From positions 1-40,344 of the forward strand of contig JAIMAT010000013.1 of assembly GCA_023511835.1 (NCBI GenBank): a DNA stretch of 40,344 bases, written 5' to 3'. This document shows, in pieces, positions 4,832 to 39,359 of the stretch. This DNA is from Bacillota bacterium. GTDB lineage: Bacteria > Bacillota > Sulfobacillia > JAIMAT01. The notes below the pieces were generated by a model, which made no database searches, had not been told where the DNA came from, and saw only the letters and a list, made by a program, of their open reading frames with translations. Each line of letters opens with the position of its first letter. The stretch's first letter is position 1. The position numbers were made by a program, and so were the translations under genes.

Positions 4832-5175
4832 GAGGCTCACCTCCGGAGAAAGAAGCAGGGCCGTTGGGCCCCGGTCTCGCCGGCGGCCGGCGCTCTCCGC
4901 GGGCCCGGCGCCCCGGAGAGGGGGCCGCCATGGCTGAGGGGCGGGTGACCGCCCCCCGAACAGGCTATGCTTCCACCCGTCGGGGGTGCGGTGCCGGGTC
5001 GTTTGCTTCCCGCGCCGCGGGAGGCGTTGCGCCTTGAGGGGATGGGGCGGCACGGAGGGCCCCCTTCGAAACGGAGGAGCGGGGCGGGCCACCGCCCACC
5101 CCGCTCCCGGATGAGCGACCGGGCAGGCGGCCGGGCCGGCGCATGCCGCCGCCGACGCCCGGCCCCCCCAGGCCT
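4832..5175. other. Intergenic region upstream of the lysozyme, hairpin-rich
   Basis: 344 bases with no gene. Besides the terminator-like hairpin at 5076-5107 it contains a perfect 7-bp hairpin at 4938-4955 (GGGGCGG, loop GTGA, CCGCCCC) and a 7-bp stem pairing 4893-4899 with 4914-4920. Both would sit in the 5' leader of the leftward lysozyme transcript. I could not identify a convincing promoter for the lysozyme. Confidence 0.5.
5076..5107 (-). terminator. Probable terminator of the glycolate operon
   Basis: A 9-bp perfect stem (GGAGCGGGG at 5076-5084 with CCCCGCTCC at 5099-5107) has a further GGGC/GCCC inner stem. Read leftward it is followed by a short sequence with three consecutive T residues. 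It lies about 70 bases beyond the permease stop codon. Confidence 0.45.
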
Positions 5176-6843
5176 TCAGAGTTGCATGGCGCCCGGCGCC
5201 ACGTAGCGGAAGAAGAGGCCGATCAGGATCAGGTAGGCGAGGAGCACCAGCGTCCAGCCCATGTTGTGCCGAATCACCTCGCCCTCGTTGCGCACCAGCC
5301 GGCTGGTGGAGACGCCCACGCTGGCGGTCTGCGGGGCCACCGGCTTGCCGATCTCCGAGCCCACCGAGTTGAGCGAGGGCAGGAGCAGCGGCGGGAAGTG
5401 GAGGAGGCTCCCCGCCACCGTCTGGATCTGGCCGAACATGGCGTTGGTGGAGGTGTTGCTGCCCGAGAGGGCGACGCCCACCCAGCCCAGGATCGGCGCC
5501 AGCACCACGAAGGCCGGGCCCACGCGGGCGAAGCTGTAAGCCAGCGAGGCCGCCATGCCCGAGTAGTTGAAGACGTAGGCGAGGCCGAAGATGAAGAAGG
5601 CCACCAGGAGGGCGCCCCACATCTGGCGGAAGGTGCGGGCGAAGACCTGGCCGAGCTGGCGCGCCGAGGGTCGCAGGATGGCGGTGATGACGAGCCAGCT
5701 GGCGAGGATGGCGGTGCCGCCGTTGAGGGGCGTGAAGGAGAAGGCCGAGGCCACTTCCTTGTGCGTCACCGAGGAGAGGGCCGATGTGGAGAGCTTGAAG
5801 AGCGAGAAGGAGGGCAGGTGGGACCAGGGGCCGGTCCAGGCGACCACCACCACGATCAGCACGATATAAGGAAGCCAGGCCACCAGCGCCTCGCGCGCGC
5901 CCCGCGGCGAGGCCGGCGGGTCCGGCGGGTCGACCGCCACCGCACCCGCGCCTGCGGGCGCGGCGCCCGCCACCACGGTCACCGGCCGGCCCCCGGCGCC
6001 GATGGGGAGGCCGCCGAAGCCGCGCACCACGCGCGGCCGCCAGAGGCGCAGAAAGGCGTAGAGGACCCAGAAGGAGACCAGCGAGCCGGTCAGGTCGGGC
6101 AGGAAGGGACCTACCCACTGCGAGACGGGGTACTGGCCGGCGATGTAGGAGAGCGAGGCGACCACCGCCAGCGGCCAGGCCTCGCGTAGACCCTGGCGCC
6201 CGCTGACCAGGTAGATGAGGATCCAGGGCGGCAGCAGCGCCAGGATGGCGACCAGCTTCCCCACCGAGGCGGAGAGGATGAAGGGGTCGATCTGCGTCAC
6301 CGCGCCCAGGGCCAGGATCGGGGCGCCCAGGGCGCCGTAGGAGACGGGCGCGTTGTTGGCCAGGGCGGCCACGCGGATGGCCTCCAGGTCGCTGATGCCG
6401 ATGCCCACCAGGATGGGCGCCACCACGGACCACGGGTAGCCGAAGCCCACCAGCCCCTCCAGCAGCGCCCCGAAGGACCAGGCCAGGAGGATGGTCTGCA
6501 CCCGGATGTCGGCCGTCGCCTCGGCCAGGATCCAGTTCTTGAACCGGTCGAAGGTGCCCGTCAGCACCAGCGTGTTGAAGATGACCAGCCCCCAGAAGGT
6601 GATCCAGTCGATCACCCAGGTGCCCTGCAGGGCGCCGTAGAGGTAGGCGGAGAGCGTTCCGCCCAGCGGTGCGCGCCAGACCAGGACGGCCAGGACGATG
6701 GTGACCAGGCTGCCGATCAGCGTCGCCAGCCAGGCGGTCACGCGCAGGACGGCCAGGAGAAAGAGAAGCGCCGCCAGCGGCACGAGCGCCGCGACGACGG
6801 TCAGACCCAGGCTGCCGGTGGGATTGAGGATCTGCGCGAACAC
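5176..6843 (-). CDS. Lactate/glycolate permease (LldP/GlcA family)
   Basis: A 555-residue integral membrane protein of the L-lactate permease family, with about a dozen or more hydrophobic segments and the family's usual length. Recognisable stretches include LLEGLVGFGYPWSVVAPIL and ALSGSNTSTNAMFGQIQ, which match conserved LldP/GlcA core regions. The GTG start at 6843 is preceded by a GGGGGTG purine run; the frame stays open far upstream but that part overlaps glcD. It is the last gene of the leftward operon, 20 bases beyond the glcD stop. Family members are proton symporters for lactate and glycolate. Given its three glycolate oxidase partners, glycolate import is likely, but the lutABC genes nearby make lactate equally reasonable. 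The two substrates cannot be separated by sequence. Confidence 0.92.
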   Translation of the reverse strand: MFAQILNPTGSLGLTVVAALVPLAALLFLLAVLRVTAWLATLIGSLVTIVLAVLVWRAPLGGTLSAYLYGALQGTWVIDWITFWGLVIFNTLVLTGTFDRFKNWILAEATADIRVQTILLAWSFGALLEGLVGFGYPWSVVAPILVGIGISDLEAIRVAALANNAPVSYGALGAPILALGAVTQIDPFILSASVGKLVAILALLPPWILIYLVSGRQGLREAWPLAVVASLSYIAGQYPVSQWVGPFLPDLTGSLVSFWVLYAFLRLWRPRVVRGFGGLPIGAGGRPVTVVAGAAPAGAGAVAVDPPDPPASPRGAREALVAWLPYIVLIVVVVAWTGPWSHLPSFSLFKLSTSALSSVTHKEVASAFSFTPLNGGTAILASWLVITAILRPSARQLGQVFARTFRQMWGALLVAFFIFGLAYVFNYSGMAASLAYSFARVGPAFVVLAPILGWVGVALSGSNTSTNAMFGQIQTVAGSLLHFPPLLLPSLNSVGSEIGKPVAPQTASVGVSTSRLVRNEGEVIRHNMGWTLVLLAYLILIGLFFRYVAPGAMQL

Positions 6844-6863
6844 CCGTGCACCCCCTTTGACCG

Positions 6864-8291
6864 CTAGACGGGAAGCACCTTCCCGGGATTGGCCAGGCCT
6901 TTGGGATCCCAGACCTGTCTCAGCTCCGCCTGGAAGCGGAGCTCCTCCTCGCTGTACATCCACCGCATCTCTTCGCGCTTCTCGATGCCCACGCCGTGCT
7001 CGCCGGTGATCGACCCCCCTTCCTCCACGCAGGCGCGCAGGATCTCCGAGCCGGCGCGGACGGCACGTTCGCGCTGGCCGGGCAGGCGGTCGTCGAAGAG
7101 GATCAGGGGGTGGAGGTTTCCGTCGCCGGCATGGAAGACGTTGGCGATCCGCAGGCCGAACTCGCGTCCGATGGCCTCCACGCGCCCGAGCACGCGGGGC
7201 AGCCGGCTGCGCGGGATGACGCCGTCCTGGACGTAGTAGCTGGGCGAGAGGTGGCCCATGGCGCCGAAGGCGGTCTTCCGGTTCTGCCACCAGAGGTTCC
7301 GCTCCTCCGGGGAGGCGGCGATGCGCACGTCCTGCACGCCGTTGCGGCGGCAGATGGAGGCGATCTGCTCGGCCTGTTCGTCCAGGCCCGCTTCGAGGCC
7401 GTCCACCTCGATGAGCAGGACGGCGCCGGTCCCGGCGGGATAGCCGACGCGGTAGGGCCCCCGCTCGACGCCGTCCATGGCCAGGCGGTCCATCATCTCC
7501 ATGGCCGCCGGCAGGATGCCGGCCGCGATGACGTCCGAGACGGTCTGGCTGGCCTCGTCGGGCGAGGCGAAGAGGGCCAGCACCGTCCGCACCGCCGGAG
7601 GGCGGCGGACCAGCCGGACCACCGCCTCGGTGGCCAGGCCCAGCGTCCCCTCCGATCCGACGAAGAAGGCGGTCAGGTCGTAGCCCGGCAGGTCGGGGGC
7701 GGCACCGCCCAGGCGGAGCCGTTCGCCGCGCGCCGTCACCACCTCCAGGCCGAGGACGTGGTTGGTCGTCACCCCGTACTTGAGGCAGTGGCTGCCGCCG
7801 GAGTTCTCCGCCACGTTGCCGCCGATGCTGCAGGCCACCTGGCTGGATGGGTCGGGCGCGTAGAAGAAGCCGTAGGGGGCGACCGCCTCGCTGAGCGCCA
7901 AGTTGGTCACGCCCGGCTCCACCCAGGCGCGCTCGCTCTCGGGGTCGACGCGGACCAGCCGGCGCAGGCGGACCAGGTCGACCACCACGCCGCCCCGCTC
8001 GGCCACCGCGCCGCCGGAGAGGCCGGTGCCGGAGCCGCGGGGCAGCCAGGGGACGCCGTGCCGCTCCAGGAGCCGGACGACACGCTCCGCCTCTTCGCGG
8101 TCGTGGGGAAGCACCACCGCCTGGGGACGGGCGCTGAAAACGGTGTTGCCATCGCACTCGTAGGCCAGGAGCCGGCGGGTGCCGGCGAGGACCGAGTCGG
8201 CGCCCACGATGGCGGCCAGGCCCGCCACCACCTCGGCGGGCAGGCCGGGCGGGAGGTCGGCGCACGGGGCCGCGCTATCCGGAGCGGCCAT
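6864..8291 (-). CDS. glcD: Glycolate oxidase FAD subunit GlcD
   Basis: A 475-residue FAD-linked oxidase of the GlcD/D-lactate dehydrogenase family, expected to oxidise glycolate to glyoxylate (or D-lactate to pyruvate). The FAD-binding PCMH domain contains PRGSGTGLSGG at 84-94 and GGNVAENSGG. The C-terminal substrate domain ends with the family motif ITGEHGVGIEKR. The ATG at 8291 has GAGGAGGTGAG just upstream. Its first 17 bases overlap the end of glcF, indicating translational coupling. With GlcE and GlcF it should form a membrane-associated flavin/iron-sulfur complex that passes electrons to quinone. Substrate preference is inferred from the three-subunit context and from the divergent malate synthase. 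Confidence 0.93.
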   Translation of the reverse strand: MAAPDSAAPCADLPPGLPAEVVAGLAAIVGADSVLAGTRRLLAYECDGNTVFSARPQAVVLPHDREEAERVVRLLERHGVPWLPRGSGTGLSGGAVAERGGVVVDLVRLRRLVRVDPESERAWVEPGVTNLALSEAVAPYGFFYAPDPSSQVACSIGGNVAENSGGSHCLKYGVTTNHVLGLEVVTARGERLRLGGAAPDLPGYDLTAFFVGSEGTLGLATEAVVRLVRRPPAVRTVLALFASPDEASQTVSDVIAAGILPAAMEMMDRLAMDGVERGPYRVGYPAGTGAVLLIEVDGLEAGLDEQAEQIASICRRNGVQDVRIAASPEERNLWWQNRKTAFGAMGHLSPSYYVQDGVIPRSRLPRVLGRVEAIGREFGLRIANVFHAGDGNLHPLILFDDRLPGQRERAVRAGSEILRACVEEGGSITGEHGVGIEKREEMRWMYSEEELRFQAELRQVWDPKGLANPGKVLPV

Positions 8292-34218: not shown

Positions 34219-37200
34219 TCAACGGGCGGGCAGCCCCCGCTCCCGCGCCGTCCCGGCCGCGGTCCGGGGGGAGAGACCGTCGGCGCGCAGCTCCCCGATC
34301 CACTCGGCCACCACGGCGAGGCCCAGGCCGCGTCGCTGGAGACGGCCCACCACCCGCAGGGGGGGCGTCTCCGGGCCGAAGAGCAGGTGCCCGTAGCGCT
34401 GGTACGTCCCTTCGAAAACCGTGACGTCGGTCAGCCCGGTCTCGTCCTCCAGCGAGAGAAAGACCACGGTCCTCCCGCTCCGCGTGGGCGGGCGGTGGGG
34501 GCGGACCGGCAGGCCGGCCACCCGGACGAGGCGACCATCCGCCACCCGCTCCAGCTCCCGCCGGCTCAGGTAGCCCTCGCGGCGCAGCCGGTCGCGCCAG
34601 AGGTGCATGGGGTGCCCCTGCGCGCTCATGCCCAGCACCTGGTACTCGAGGAGGAGCCGCTCCTCCGGCGTGAAGTCGGGGCCGGCCTCGGCCGGCTCGA
34701 TCGCCAGCGGTTGCTGGACGCCCGCGGGACCCGACGGTCCGGCCGCGGGCGGGAGCCAGGCGAGGAGCGCCCGCCGGTTGGGGTGGAGCGCGTCGAAGGC
34801 GCCGGCCAGGATCAGCCGCTCCAGCGTCTCCCGCTCCACCCGGGTGCGCCGCCGGAAGTCGGCGAAGGAGGTGAAGGGGGCCGCCCGGCGGGCCTCCAGG
34901 ATGGAGCCCAGCTCCGCCTGCCGGATCCCCTTCACCCGGGCGAGGGGGATGCGGATCGCCTCCCGGCCGTCGCGCCCCTCCACCGCGAAGCGCTCGCCGC
35001 TCCGGTTGACGTCCAGTCCCAGGAAGCGGACGCCGCGGTTGCGCGCCTCGTTGACCAGCGTCGCCGGCGCGTAGAAGCCCATCGGCTGGTTGTTCAAGAG
35101 TGCGGCGAAGAAGTGCGCGGGGTGATGGGCCGAGAGGTAGGCCGTCCAATAGCTGGTGGTGGCGAAGGCGGCGGCGTGCGCCTCGCAGAACCCGTAGCTG
35201 GCGTAGCCCTCCAGAGAGGCGAAGACCTGGCGGGCCGTCGCCTCGCCGACGCCCCGGGCGACCGCGCGGCGGACGAACTCCTCGCCCATCGCGCGCATCT
35301 CCTGGCGCGAGCGGGCATGCGTCATCAGCCTGCGGAGCCGGTCGGCCTCGCCGGGGGTGAAGCCGGCCAACTCGGTGGCGATGGCGATCACCTGCTCCTG
35401 GAAGAGGACGACCCCGTAGGTCTTCTCCAGGATCGGCGCCAGCGCAGGGTGGGGGAAGGTGACCGGCTCCCGCCCCTGCCGCCGGGCGACGTAGGGGTCG
35501 ACCATGTTCCCCTTGATGGGGCCTGGGCGGATGAGGGCGAGGCTGGCCACCACGTCCTCCAGGCGCTCGGCCCCCAGGCGCGCCTGGAGCGCCCGCTGGG
35601 CGGGGCTCTCCAGCTGGAAGACGCCGACGGTCTGCCCCTTTCGGAGGAGCCGGTAGGTGGCCGGGTCGTCCAGGGGCAGCGCTTCGTAGCGGAAGCCCGG
35701 GCGCTTCCGCAAGAGGTCCGCGGCGGCGTCCTCCAGCAGGCTGAGCGCCTTGAGCGAGAGGAGGTCGACCTTGACCAGGTTGAGCTCCTCCACGTCGTCG
35801 CGGTCGAACTGGGCGATCTGCACCCTCTTGGCCGCCCACTGGAGCGGCGTCACCTCCCGGACAGGCTCGCCGCTGATCACGAGGCCCCCCAGGTGCGTGC
35901 CGAGGAAACGGGGGAGGCCGGCCAGGCGGGCGCTGGCCTCCAGGAGGGGCCGGTAGCGCTCCTCCCTCCAGGGACCGCGGCGCAGCTCCGGGAAGCGCTC
36001 CAGCGCCTCGGGGATGGCGTCGGCGGGGAGGTGGGGGAGGCTCTTGGCCAGCGCGTCGACCTCCTCCGCCGGATAGCCCAGCACCTTGCCCATGTCGCGC
36101 ACCGCCGAGCGCGCCTGGTAGGTGACGTAGGTGGCGACCGCGGCCACGTGCTCCTGCCCGTAGCGGGCGATCACCCGCTCAGCCACCCGGTCCCGGTAGC
36201 GGGCGTCGAAGTCGAGGTCGATGTCCGGCTTCTCCGCCCGCTCCAGGCTCAGAAAGCGCTCGAAGGGCAGGTTGCGCGCGATGGGGTCGACCTCGGTGAG
36301 GCGGAGGCAGTAGGCGAGCGCGCTGGCGCCGGCCGAGCCGCGGCCGGAGTGGCGGATCCCCTCCCGGCGGGCGTCCTCCACCACCTGCCAGGCGGTCAGG
36401 AAGTAGTCGGCGTAGCCCAGCCTCTCCACCACCCGGAGCTCCCGCTCCAGCCGCTCGCGGACAGCCGGCGTCAGGCGGCCGTACCGTTCGCGGGCGCCGG
36501 CCAGCGCCAGGCGGCGGAGATAGCCGTCGGCGCTCTCGCCTTCGGGCACCGGGAAGCGCGGGTAGCGGCGCCGGGCTGGATCCAGCGCCGGTTGGCAGAG
36601 CCGGGCGATCTCCCAGGCGTGCTCCAGCGCCTCCGGCGCCCAGGCGAAGCGGCGGGCCATGACGGCCGGGTCGTGCAGGCTCAGGTCGTCGTTGAGCGGG
36701 CGCTCGGGGTGCGCCTCCTCGACGGGGATGCCCAGGCGGACGCAGCTGAGCAGGTCGTGCGTCCGGAAGCCCTCCCGCGTCGCGTAGTGGACGTCGTGGG
36801 TGGCCACCAACGGGATGCCGAGGCGCTCGCCCAACTCCTGCAGGTGGCGGTTCAGGAAGCGGTCCCCGGGGAGGAGCGATTCCTGCACCTCGAGGTAGAA
36901 GCGCTCCCCCCAGAGCAAGCGGTAACGGCGCGCGGCCTCCAGCGCGCCGGCGAAGTCGCGGCGGAGGAGGCGGCGGGCGATCTCCCCGCGCCGGCAGCCG
37001 GAGAGGGCGATCAGCCCCTGGCGATGGGCCTCCAGGTCCTGCCAGCGCACCCGCGGCCGCCCGCGCGGGTGGTTCAGGTGGGCCTCGGAGAGCAGCCGAC
37101 AGAGGCGGGCGTACCCCGCCGGCCCCGTGGCCAGCAGGGTGAGGTGGTAGCCCCCCTCCAGCGTCACCTCGGCGCCCTGGATCGGCTGGATGCCGGCGGC

Positions 37201-37374
37201 CCGGGCCGCCCGCGCGAAGCGGACCGCGCCGCTGACGTTGTCGTGGTCGGTGAGCGCCAGCGCGGGCATGCCCAGCTCGGCGGCGCGCCGCACCAGCTCT
37301 TCGGGCGAGCTGGCGCCGTCCAGGAAGGAGAAGTAGGAATGGACGTGCAGGTGGACGAACGGCGGGCGGTTCAC
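34219..37374 (-). CDS. dnaE2: Error-prone DNA polymerase III alpha subunit, DnaE2/ImuC type
   Basis: A 1051-residue C-family DNA polymerase. The PHP domain begins with HLHVHSYFSFLDG and ALTDHDN; the catalytic palm has KPDIDLDFD with Asp384 and Asp386, and VKVDLLSLKAL supplies the third Asp region. RHSGRGSAGAS and IRPGPIKGNMVDPY are further family blocks. An OB domain near the end contains SGRTVVFLSLEDETGL, and the protein stops there without the tau-binding tail of replicative DnaE1. Length and C-terminus fit DnaE2 (ImuC), which makes mutagenic translesion patches. The GTG start at 37374 has GGAGAGGGAG upstream. It follows an ImuB-like fragment and a DUF6504 gene in one leftward unit. Confidence 0.93.
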   Translation of the reverse strand: MNRPPFVHLHVHSYFSFLDGASSPEELVRRAAELGMPALALTDHDNVSGAVRFARAARAAGIQPIQGAEVTLEGGYHLTLLATGPAGYARLCRLLSEAHLNHPRGRPRVRWQDLEAHRQGLIALSGCRRGEIARRLLRRDFAGALEAARRYRLLWGERFYLEVQESLLPGDRFLNRHLQELGERLGIPLVATHDVHYATREGFRTHDLLSCVRLGIPVEEAHPERPLNDDLSLHDPAVMARRFAWAPEALEHAWEIARLCQPALDPARRRYPRFPVPEGESADGYLRRLALAGARERYGRLTPAVRERLERELRVVERLGYADYFLTAWQVVEDARREGIRHSGRGSAGASALAYCLRLTEVDPIARNLPFERFLSLERAEKPDIDLDFDARYRDRVAERVIARYGQEHVAAVATYVTYQARSAVRDMGKVLGYPAEEVDALAKSLPHLPADAIPEALERFPELRRGPWREERYRPLLEASARLAGLPRFLGTHLGGLVISGEPVREVTPLQWAAKRVQIAQFDRDDVEELNLVKVDLLSLKALSLLEDAAADLLRKRPGFRYEALPLDDPATYRLLRKGQTVGVFQLESPAQRALQARLGAERLEDVVASLALIRPGPIKGNMVDPYVARRQGREPVTFPHPALAPILEKTYGVVLFQEQVIAIATELAGFTPGEADRLRRLMTHARSRQEMRAMGEEFVRRAVARGVGEATARQVFASLEGYASYGFCEAHAAAFATTSYWTAYLSAHHPAHFFAALLNNQPMGFYAPATLVNEARNRGVRFLGLDVNRSGERFAVEGRDGREAIRIPLARVKGIRQAELGSILEARRAAPFTSFADFRRRTRVERETLERLILAGAFDALHPNRRALLAWLPPAAGPSGPAGVQQPLAIEPAEAGPDFTPEERLLLEYQVLGMSAQGHPMHLWRDRLRREGYLSRRELERVADGRLVRVAGLPVRPHRPPTRSGRTVVFLSLEDETGLTDVTVFEGTYQRYGHLLFGPETPPLRVVGRLQRRGLGLAVVAEWIGELRADGLSPRTAAGTARERGLPAR

Positions 37375-37482: not shown

Positions 37483-37731
37483 TCAGTCGTAGAGCCGGTA
37501 GAGGTGCCAGGAAGAGGCGGCCCCGGAGTCGCGATAGATCTCCCAGAGCGCGCCGTCGGCGGTCTGGAGGCGGAAGAAGAGCTTGGGCGGCTCGCCCGCC
37601 CACCAGCGCCCGACGTCCCTCCAACGCTCCAGGACGGCCTCCACCGGGTAGCGGCGCCCGCGCCAGAGGAGAAGCCTCGGCCGGCCGGAGGGCGTGCAGA
37701 GGACGCGCAGGGGACGGCCCACGCCGCTCAC
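37483..37731 (-). CDS. DUF6504 family protein
   Basis: An 82-residue protein matching DUF6504, a small family commonly encoded between Y-family polymerase-like genes and dnaE2 in damage-inducible cassettes. Visible core: RPLRVLCTPSGRPRLLLWRG, PVEAVLERWRDVGRWW and FFRLQTADGALWEIYRD. The GTG at 37731 overlaps the stop of the upstream little-finger gene (GTGA); a second GTG at 37722 with GGGGAG eight bases upstream is also possible. dnaE2 starts 108 bases downstream. No function has been established for the family that I know of; its context suggests a mutasome accessory role. Confidence 0.8.
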   Translation of the reverse strand: MSGVGRPLRVLCTPSGRPRLLLWRGRRYPVEAVLERWRDVGRWWAGEPPKLFFRLQTADGALWEIYRDSGAASSWHLYRLYD

Positions 37732-38237
37732 TCCCCGTCCCGGCCGCCGCCGCGGAGCGGATCGTAGAAGGCGAGCATCCTCTCCCGCCGGGCGGCGGAG
37801 CCCGTCCCGGCCGAGGCACCTCCCCGCAGGACGGCCAGCGGGTAGCGGCGGTTGACCTCCCGGAGCGCCGCCTCCAGGCGGTGCTCGCGGTCGGCGTGGC
37901 GGCCTCCCGTCAGGTCGAGTTGGGCGAAGGCCAGCGGCATCAGGCGCGCGGCCCGGAGCGCGAGGTGCTCCGCCGGACCGGGCAGCGGCCACGTCTCAAG
38001 GAGCCGGGCGACCGCGGAGGGCAGGCCGGCCGGCGGCGCCTGGAGCGGGAGGAGGGTGGAACGCGTCCGCTCCCGCCCCGCGGCGCGGAGACGGACCTGC
38101 ACCTCCTGCCAGGCCAGGCCGCGCTCCTCGAGCTCCCTGGCGAGCCGTTCGGCCAGCTGGCGGGCGAGGGCCACCAGCCGTTCGCGCGAGTCGACCTCCT
38201 CCAGCGCGAGCGATTCCACCAGCGATTCATCCGGCAC
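37728..38237 (-). CDS. Stand-alone Y-family polymerase little-finger protein (ImuB C-terminal-like)
   Basis: A 169-residue protein whose body matches the little-finger region of ImuB/DinB polymerases: a helix (LVALARQLAERLARELEERG), a strand block (WQEVQVRLRAAG), TRSTLLPLQAPP, a second helix (AVARLLETWPLPG), LALRAARLMPLAFAQLDL, and the closing helix EHRLEAALREVNRRYPLAVLRG. FYDPLR near the end also recalls ImuB tails. The palm, fingers and thumb are absent. The frame stays open upstream but that stretch is antisense to the S24 gene and has no polymerase motifs. The GTG at 38237 is preceded by AAGGTGG five bases away. It sits exactly where imuB sits in imuB-DUF6504-dnaE2 cassettes. It may be a natural catalytic-domain-less adaptor or a decayed ImuB. 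Confidence 0.75.
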   Translation of the reverse strand: MPDESLVESLALEEVDSRERLVALARQLAERLARELEERGLAWQEVQVRLRAAGRERTRSTLLPLQAPPAGLPSAVARLLETWPLPGPAEHLALRAARLMPLAFAQLDLTGGRHADREHRLEAALREVNRRYPLAVLRGGASAGTGSAARRERMLAFYDPLRGGGRDGE

Positions 38238-38261
38238 GGTTTCCACCTTCCCCGGAAGAGT

Positions 38262-38278
38262 GTTCCCACTTCGTGAAC
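38262..38278. promoter_or_regulatory. Candidate S24 repressor operator, leftward promoter side
   Basis: GTTCCCACTTCGTGAAC is a 17-bp imperfect inverted repeat of GTTC/GAAC half-sites, 25 bases upstream of the little-finger gene start. It matches the site at 38350-38366 at 11 of 17 positions in the same orientation, including GTGAAC at the right end. Operator function is inferred. Confidence 0.55.
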
Positions 38279-38326
38279 GGAAAAAGGCGTGCGAGGCCCG
38301 GTGCGGATCCGGAGGCCTTGTTGAGA

Positions 38327-38356
38327 TTGCAAGACCGGGTGCGCCCAGTGTACACT
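38327..38356 (+). promoter_or_regulatory. Sigma-A-like promoter of the S24 repressor gene
   Basis: TTGCAA (38327-38332) and TACACT (38351-38356) are separated by 18 bases. The -10 lies within the inverted repeat at 38350-38366, so a repressor bound there would block transcription. Confidence 0.6.
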
Positions 38357-38366
38357 CGAAGTGAAC
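38350..38366. promoter_or_regulatory. Candidate S24 repressor operator, rightward promoter side
   Basis: GTACACTCGAAGTGAAC is a 17-bp inverted repeat (six of eight arm positions pair) overlapping the -10 box of the repressor promoter. It shares its layout with the site at 38262-38278, 88 bases away centre to centre. Confidence 0.6.
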
Positions 38367-38441
38367 AGCCGTCAACGGCGGAGGGCGGAGGCGCCGCGGG
38401 GCCCGCGGCGGGCGGCCGGGCCGCTCCGGGGAGGCCGGAGG

Positions 38442-39359
38442 ATGGGGAAGAGGGCGGAGAAGGGGACGGCGGAGAAGGAGAGACGGGGGCGGCAGCCCGG
38501 GACGGGCAGCGCGGCGCTGGGCGGCCTCCTGGCTGCCCTGCGCCTCTCGCGGGGCCTCTCGTTGCGCGAGCTGGGGCGGCGGATCGGCAAGGCGGCCTCG
38601 ACCGTCCAGGCCTGGGAGCAGGGCCGGCGGATGCCCGGGCTCGACGACCTGATGGTCCTCGCCCACGAGCTCGGATACGAGCTGGAGGAGCTGGTCCGTC
38701 TGGCCGCCGCGCCCCGCCGGCAGCTGAGGCAGGAGCTGGCCGCCACCCGAAGGGAGCTGCGGCGGCTGGAGCCGGGAGGGCGTCCGGGCGTCGCGGAGGG
38801 GGAGCCGTCGCGGCGGCGGCTGGAGCTGGAGCGGCGCCGGGCCTTCCTGGAGCGCCTCCTGGCCGCCAGCGAGGCGGCGGGAGGCGAGCGGGACGGCGCC
38901 GGCGCGGCACTCCCCGAACTGGCGCGCCTCGGCGCGCTTCCCGCGCGCCGCCTGCCCGTGGCGGGCGAGATCGCGGCGGGCCGGCCGCGCTTCGCCCTGG
39001 AGGAGGCGGGCGACTTCGTCGACGTCCCTCCGGGGATGGCGGCCGCCTATGCGCTCCGGGTGGTGGGCGACAGCATGGTAGGGGCGGGCATCGATCCGGG
39101 CGACGTGGTGCTGGTGCGGAGCGAGGAGGCCGCGGAGCCCGGTGCGGTGGTGGTGGCGCTGCTGGGCGGGCAGGAGGTGACCGTCAAGCACTTGGTCCGC
39201 GTGGGTGAGCGGTACTTCCTGCGCGCCAACAACCCGGCGCGCGACTACGCGGACATCCCCCTGGGACCGGAGGACCGCCTGCTGGGGGTCGTGGAGGGCG
39301 TCCTGAAGCGCCCGGGGCCGCCTCCGAAGGAGGGGCGGGCGCGATGGGCGAGATCCTGA
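38442..39359 (+). CDS. XRE-S24 self-cleaving repressor (LexA/cI-like)
   Basis: A 305-residue regulator. An XRE helix-turn-helix (about residues 28-86, LSLRELGRRIGKAASTVQAWEQG) is joined by a charged coiled-coil-like linker (about 90-150) to an S24 peptidase domain. The cleavage site is probably Ala174-Gly175 in PVAGEIAAG, the nucleophile is Ser211 in GDSMVGAGIDPGD, and the Lys is Lys249 in VTVKHL. Such proteins cut themselves when RecA filaments form, releasing damage-response genes. The ATG at 38442 is chosen because GGGGAGG lies seven bases upstream; an in-frame GTG at 38361 falls inside an operator. It diverges from the dnaE2 cassette and overlaps the DUF72 gene by 16 bases. The DNA-binding part is XRE, not LexA's winged helix. 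Confidence 0.9.
   Translation: MGKRAEKGTAEKERRGRQPGTGSAALGGLLAALRLSRGLSLRELGRRIGKAASTVQAWEQGRRMPGLDDLMVLAHELGYELEELVRLAAAPRRQLRQELAATRRELRRLEPGGRPGVAEGEPSRRRLELERRRAFLERLLAASEAAGGERDGAGAALPELARLGALPARRLPVAGEIAAGRPRFALEEAGDFVDVPPGMAAAYALRVVGDSMVGAGIDPGDVVLVRSEEAAEPGAVVVALLGGQEVTVKHLVRVGERYFLRANNPARDYADIPLGPEDRLLGVVEGVLKRPGPPPKEGRARWARS

Follow-up and report, generated by a model that had tools for sequence, protein, structure and literature searches.

The locus described here raises the question of how far a mutasome adaptor can be reduced: at the imuB position of an imuB-DUF6504-dnaE2 cassette lies a gene for a protein of only 169 residues, which the initial annotation, made from sequence alone, read as a free-standing Y-family polymerase little finger (LF) with a short tail and proposed as a minimal adaptor that had not arisen by random deletion. 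We refer to the whole stretch of 40,344 nucleotides analyzed as the window, and to genes of this kind as LF-only. In AlphaFold models, DnaE2 is bound at its PHP domain by ImuB-C and is also contacted by the thumb (PMC12926913), and the most reduced ImuB in a published survey still has LF, thumb and ImuB-C; because fragments below 200 aa were discarded there (PMC12926913), the survey would miss LF-only proteins. The RecA-NT of mycobacterial ImuB has been shown experimentally to bind ImuA' (PMC11791113), and the clamp has been crystallised in complex with an isolated LF of Pol IV (PMC4564189). No free-standing LF was reported in the open-licence literature that we searched (main texts without supplementary files).

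Identity of the Little-Finger Gene

The 169-aa gene (37728–38237, minus strand) encodes a Y-family little finger, and its assignment as an LF-only ImuB/iPolY rests on the open reading frame, homology, Pfam, AlphaFold and Foldseek. Residues 6–97 (37947–38222, minus strand) form the beta-alpha-beta-beta-alpha-beta fold of the domain; Pfam matches IMS_C over residues 14–109 at 24.8 bits, above its cut-off of 20.7 bits, the AlphaFold model, built from an input of 48 related sequences, is predicted with a pLDDT of ~95–98 over residues 11–100, and the best 50 Foldseek matches of this model among solved structures are all Y-family polymerases, with the best crystal structures agreeing to ~1.5 Å over 96 columns. 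Pfam matches to YAcAr/SLOG and FlgO fell below cut-off and were taken as chance.

The protein derives from ImuB and not from DinB, since it matches the ImuB profile and carries a segment, RRExxLxFxDPxR, that LF-only proteins share with the full-length ImuBs of the same cassette and that is absent from the window genome's own DinB. LF-only proteins align to the C-terminal part of the cassette-ImuB profile (positions ~237–397 of 397), the window protein matching model positions 239–397 of the full-length ImuBs of its relatives. Their start falls at model position 237–252, and the thumb lies upstream of that. The little-finger domain expected of a Y-family DNA polymerase is therefore all that remains of the polymerase: the palm and fingers with the D-DE catalytic triad are absent, no body lies upstream, and the inactivated body with thumb that is a feature of ImuB is missing. 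With the thumb gone, the LF-only variant is reduced beyond thumb plus LF, the smallest form published.

The initial annotation's mention of a short tail held only in part, as the tail carries a clamp-like motif, a RecA-NT-like helix and the stretch of the protein where conservation is highest. A clamp-binding-like motif, QLDLT, occupies residues 106–110 (37908–37922, minus strand) and is assigned as a sequence motif without binding data. Its Q106 is invariant among nine aligned LF-only proteins, and several members, with QLSLF or QLALF, fit the clamp consensus, QLSFF being found as well; within the window genus the motif reads QLDLT, QLDLA or QMDLA, ending in T or A, and in G018 it is degenerate (QHTLC). 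Stretches resembling QQPLAI in DnaE2 were considered as a compensating clamp motif in the LF-only clade, but they vary and do not decide the matter. Residues 114–138 (37824–37898, minus strand) form a RecA-NT-like helix and strand that line up in register with the N-termini of RecA proteins; the hhalign score of 18.8 exceeds the maximum of 16.9 in 60 column shuffles, with a probability of only 22%, and we regard this weak profile match as no more than suggestive. The C-terminal motif RRERMLAFYDPLR at residues 150–162 (37752–37790, minus strand) was identified by conservation: E152, D159 and R162 are invariant in 48 proteins, RRE-L-F-DP-R is invariant in the nine LF-only proteins, and 8 of the 15 columns invariant among these nine fall inside its 13 residues.

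Cassette Partners and Related Systems

The LF-only gene is followed by DUF6504 and then DnaE2. Starting with GTG, it overlaps DUF6504 (82 aa; 37483–37731, minus strand; Pfam 44 bits, cut-off 24.2) by GTGA, the junction reading GA-GTGA-GC. We identify DUF6504 as a free-standing ImuB-C domain because a scan of the canonical ImuB of Methylocella returns IMS, IMS_C and DUF6504, the last as its C-terminal domain. The error-prone C-family polymerase DnaE2 (34219–37374, minus strand) has the PHP, alpha NTPase, finger and HhH domains, and its catalytic motif PDIDLDF is intact. At DnaE2 residues 349–350 (36325–36330), which are palm positions, the LF-only clade reads GRGSAGAS, and nearly all other DnaE2s have AD (A in 77/79, D in 75/79). 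A second class of DUF6504 genes lies away from ImuB and DnaE2 (L099, L112, L114, L118, L142 and L146).

Judging by its parts and their order, the window cassette would correspond to the DnaE2X-type module known from Kyrpidia tusciae, which consists of an inactive PolY, a free-standing ImuB-C and DnaE2, together with RecA (PMC6511836, PMC12926913). The operon order and parts are the same, there is no imuA in the operon, and a lexA-type gene is often adjacent, as in the window. The ImuA-free, RecA-alone state of the module also holds for G000, G001, G002 and G018, each of which has one PF00154 gene at E ≤ 1e-10, though a very diverged ImuA is not excluded. The window's class carries the module with a full-length inactive PolY, whereas in the LF-only cassette PolY is cut to LF plus tail, with no full inactive PolY elsewhere in the genome, and an apparently dedicated XRE-S24 repressor takes the place of classical LexA. 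Canonical ImuB systems (tuberculosis, Caulobacter) combine LF, clamp motif, RecA-NT and ImuB-C; the LF-only cassette follows this linear order with its LF, clamp-like and RecA-NT-like segments and ImuB-C, but splits them over two coupled genes, and its LF protein lacks the polymerase body. The E. coli Pol IV fragment on the beta clamp (PMC4564189) indicates that an isolated LF with a C-terminal clamp motif is enough to bind the clamp in a crystal; that was a laboratory fragment, whereas the window holds a natural gene. UmuC/DUF4113 likewise has, after its LF, a helix and strand similar to the N-terminus of RecA (the RecA-NT motif), but in the LF-only protein profile support is weak, there is no UmuD, and the segment is attached to an LF only.

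Distribution and Origin

LF-only genes beside DUF6504-DnaE2 were found in ten species of five families and two classes, with four members in the window's class (G000, G001, G002 and G018) and six in another (G428, G542, G334, G528, G310 and G536). Matches in G030 and G461 are cut by contig ends and were excluded from this count. The other 62 cassette ORFs at DUF6504 loci in the window's class are full-length ImuBs, and as none of them (0/62) keeps the catalytic residues, all are inactivated.

The LF-only clade has a single origin. Nine LF-only rows form one clade in the DnaE2 tree (UFBoot/SH-aLRT 100/99), a single change to the LF-only state is recovered in 100% of 200 bootstrap trees, and a quick tree of 87 DnaE2 rows, eight of them LF-only, agrees. 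The DnaE2 fragment of G001 was too short and was left out of the DnaE2 tree; its cassette has the same layout as the window and its LF is 73% identical. G536 is the basal member of the clade, and the window genus and G018 nest among sequences of the other class, which suggests transfer of the cassette between classes, a possibility inferred from the tree. The reduction looks stepwise, since the ImuB of the sister of the clade, L225, lacks the first ~60 positions yet keeps part of the palm, the thumb and the LF. ImuBs starting at model position ~62–77, without the first part of the palm, occur at L223, L224, L225, L227, L228, L230, L231, L233 and L234, and these relatives in the phylum may represent an intermediate stage.

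Sharing of the truncated form by ten species rules out a local deletion or assembly gap, which bears out the initial annotation's argument against a random deletion; its statement that ImuB is already catalytically dead holds in the window's class. It had named two findings that would refute it, no match to Y-family little fingers and full-length ImuB in all relatives, and neither came true: the profile search and the structure prediction it proposed both matched Y-family little fingers, and the proposed search for the truncated form in other genomes found these ten species. A body encoded upstream in another frame can also be set aside, as the upstream DNA is taken by the divergent LexA-like gene; at most other LF-only loci a stop codon 2–46 codons ahead of the start closes the reading frame.

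Several other loci deserve mention. G039 was rejected as an LF-only case: at L085 (7656–12053) a full ImuB is split by a ~3 kb transposon-like insertion with integrase-like and ATPase ORFs, and DnaE2 is frameshifted, as in a decaying cassette. L138 (G095, 4895–7465) has two head-to-head ImuB ORFs, possibly an inverted duplication or an assembly artefact. On a Thermus brockianus plasmid (L208, 2679–4010), an S24 gene, a gene for a PolY-like protein of 443 aa whose C-terminus resembles ImuB-C, and dnaE lie in a row, possibly a fused counterpart of the window cassette. A Thermomicrobium roseum plasmid (L207, 1206–6671) carries a recA-like gene, DnaE2 and a 416-aa protein with IMS_C and no IMS match, which could be a further reduced ImuB candidate. 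One scan for phage or viral carriage found none.

Absence of an ImuB Body and Selection on the Gene

A missing body encoded elsewhere in the genome was ruled out by searches of the LF-only genomes with PF00817 and with an ImuB-body profile (A3). This profile, which detects both ImuB and DinB in control genomes, found only DinB and no ImuB body in G000, G001, G002 and G018, each of which has one intact DinB elsewhere, and in the other LF-only genomes it matched only marginally, only at the level of DinB, or not at all. PF00817 (IMS) has zero matches in G428, G334, G528 and G310, of which G528 is a single contig, so the LF cannot work with any recognizable Y-family polymerase there.

The LF-only gene is under purifying selection. 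Its dN/dS by the Nei-Gojobori method is ~0.32–0.47 within the window genus and 0.20 for G528/G310, and by YN00 0.17–0.29 and 0.24, respectively. Values for DnaE2 are lower, and the LF evolves faster.

Control Region

The control region of the operon faces a divergent gene for an XRE-HTH and peptidase S24 LexA-like repressor (38442–39359, plus strand, open frame from 38361; Pfam), and the initial annotation's reading of the gene as having its own start, GTGA coupling and a divergent control region held throughout. Homologous divergent genes are present at eight LF-only loci (the window, G001, G002, G018, G428, G542, G334 and G528), with the S and K of the S24 dyad kept; the upstream DNA of G310 is cut by a contig end, and the partner is absent at the G536 locus. 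No full-length homologue was found at the other cassettes fetched, where L091 and L178 gave partial matches only. As G000 encodes a classical LexA at another locus, the divergent gene looks like a dedicated repressor. A promoter, TTGACG-N17-TACACT (38347–38375, minus strand), faces the LF operon, and the operator palindrome TGTTCACTTCGAGTGTACA overlaps its spacer and -10. A palindrome of the type TGTTCAC-N5-GTGTACA lies between a TTGA(C/T) -35 and a TA(C/A)A(C/A)T -10, facing the LF operon, at all eight such loci (8/8); zero occurrences of the combined pattern are expected by chance in the window, and the operator in the window is its only exact copy in the genome. A second, weaker operator-like palindrome, identified by sequence, lies at 38261–38279 (CGTTCACGAAGTGGGAACA on the minus strand), and boxes resembling it occupy the corresponding position in G001, G002, G018 and G528. 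Induction of the LF operon by DNA damage is inferred from the S24 dyad.

Discussion

The likely reading of these results is that the LF-only protein is an ImuB-type adaptor without palm, fingers and thumb, consisting of LF, clamp-like motif, RecA-NT-like helix and docking tail, which would deliver DnaE2 through ImuB-C supplied in trans. Upon DNA damage, RecA would stimulate self-cleavage of the dedicated LexA-like repressor and the LF-DUF6504-DnaE2 operon would be derepressed; the LF protein would then sit on the beta clamp via its LF and QLxLF, its RecA-NT helix would engage RecA at the free end of the filament, and its RRExxLxFxDPxR tail would hold the free-standing ImuB-C, which in turn would grip the DnaE2 PHP domain and place the error-prone polymerase at the lesion. 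The fold, homology, operon, single origin, purifying selection, lack of an ImuB body in trans and conserved operator are shown; every protein-protein contact of the LF protein is inferred, with no binding data. The minimal adaptor of the initial annotation is thus supported as the best reading, its function still an inference, and that annotation had contained neither the tail motifs, nor the identity of DUF6504 as ImuB-C, nor the spread beyond the genus with a dedicated repressor and operator.

Some observations count against this adaptor reading. The last residue of the clamp motif is T or A within the window genus, the motif is degenerate in G018, profile comparison gives only a weak match to RecA-NT, the basal G536 lacks the LexA-like partner, and sequence change is faster in the LF than in DnaE2. 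Canonical systems are assumed to use the thumb for contact with DnaE2, and a complex that has lost it could be weakened instead of preserved.

Part of this evidence could be read as decay, with the body lost, the LF fragment drifting to extinction and DnaE2 acting with ImuB-C alone, as some actinobacterial DnaE2-ImuB-C systems reportedly do. The faster evolution of the LF and its weakened or degenerate clamp motifs would fit, and a decayed cassette does exist in G039. This seems very unlikely, however, for a gene that is open and conserved in ten species after one origin, with a dN/dS of ~0.20 (G528/G310) to 0.47, invariant columns that cluster at the C-terminus, translational coupling to the next gene and a control region kept across loci. 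Use of DinB as a partner, by cooperation or by a swap of the LF protein onto it, or a split ImuB with the LF protein as one half, finds support only in the intact DinB of G000, G001, G002 and G018, and is all but excluded by the lack of a second IMS or ImuB body in these four and of any IMS gene in G428, G334, G528 and G310.

A less remote alternative, though still an unlikely one, is that the LF protein is an effector that occupies the clamp or caps RecA filaments, displacing the replicative polymerase or stopping recombination, while ImuB-C alone recruits DnaE2. The clamp-like and RecA-NT-like segments are kept but the thumb, to which the models assign one of two contacts with DnaE2 (PMC12926913), is missing, and in M. 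xanthus ImuA reportedly inhibits repair that depends on RecA (cited in PMC11791113). Against this, the C-terminal motif is the most conserved part and full-length homologues have it too, pointing to a docking role common to both, and linkage to ImuB-C and DnaE2 in one operon is strict.

The adaptor reading can be taken further, to a version that we favor by a narrow margin: one autonomous domain-plus-tail protein alone would supply the clamp and RecA functions of ImuB, and its cassette, which also includes ImuB-C, DnaE2 and a dedicated SOS-type repressor, would move between classes and persist in genomes without any other Y-family fold. As LF-only proteins do without the thumb, its contact with DnaE2 would then be dispensable.

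Why mutasomes retain a dead polymerase is an open question, for which the LF-only gene is a natural deletion experiment. Beyond the LF itself, only two short motifs and a conserved tail remain and all else can go, which names the parts to test; LF-only proteins are also small candidates for solving how the mutasome assembles.
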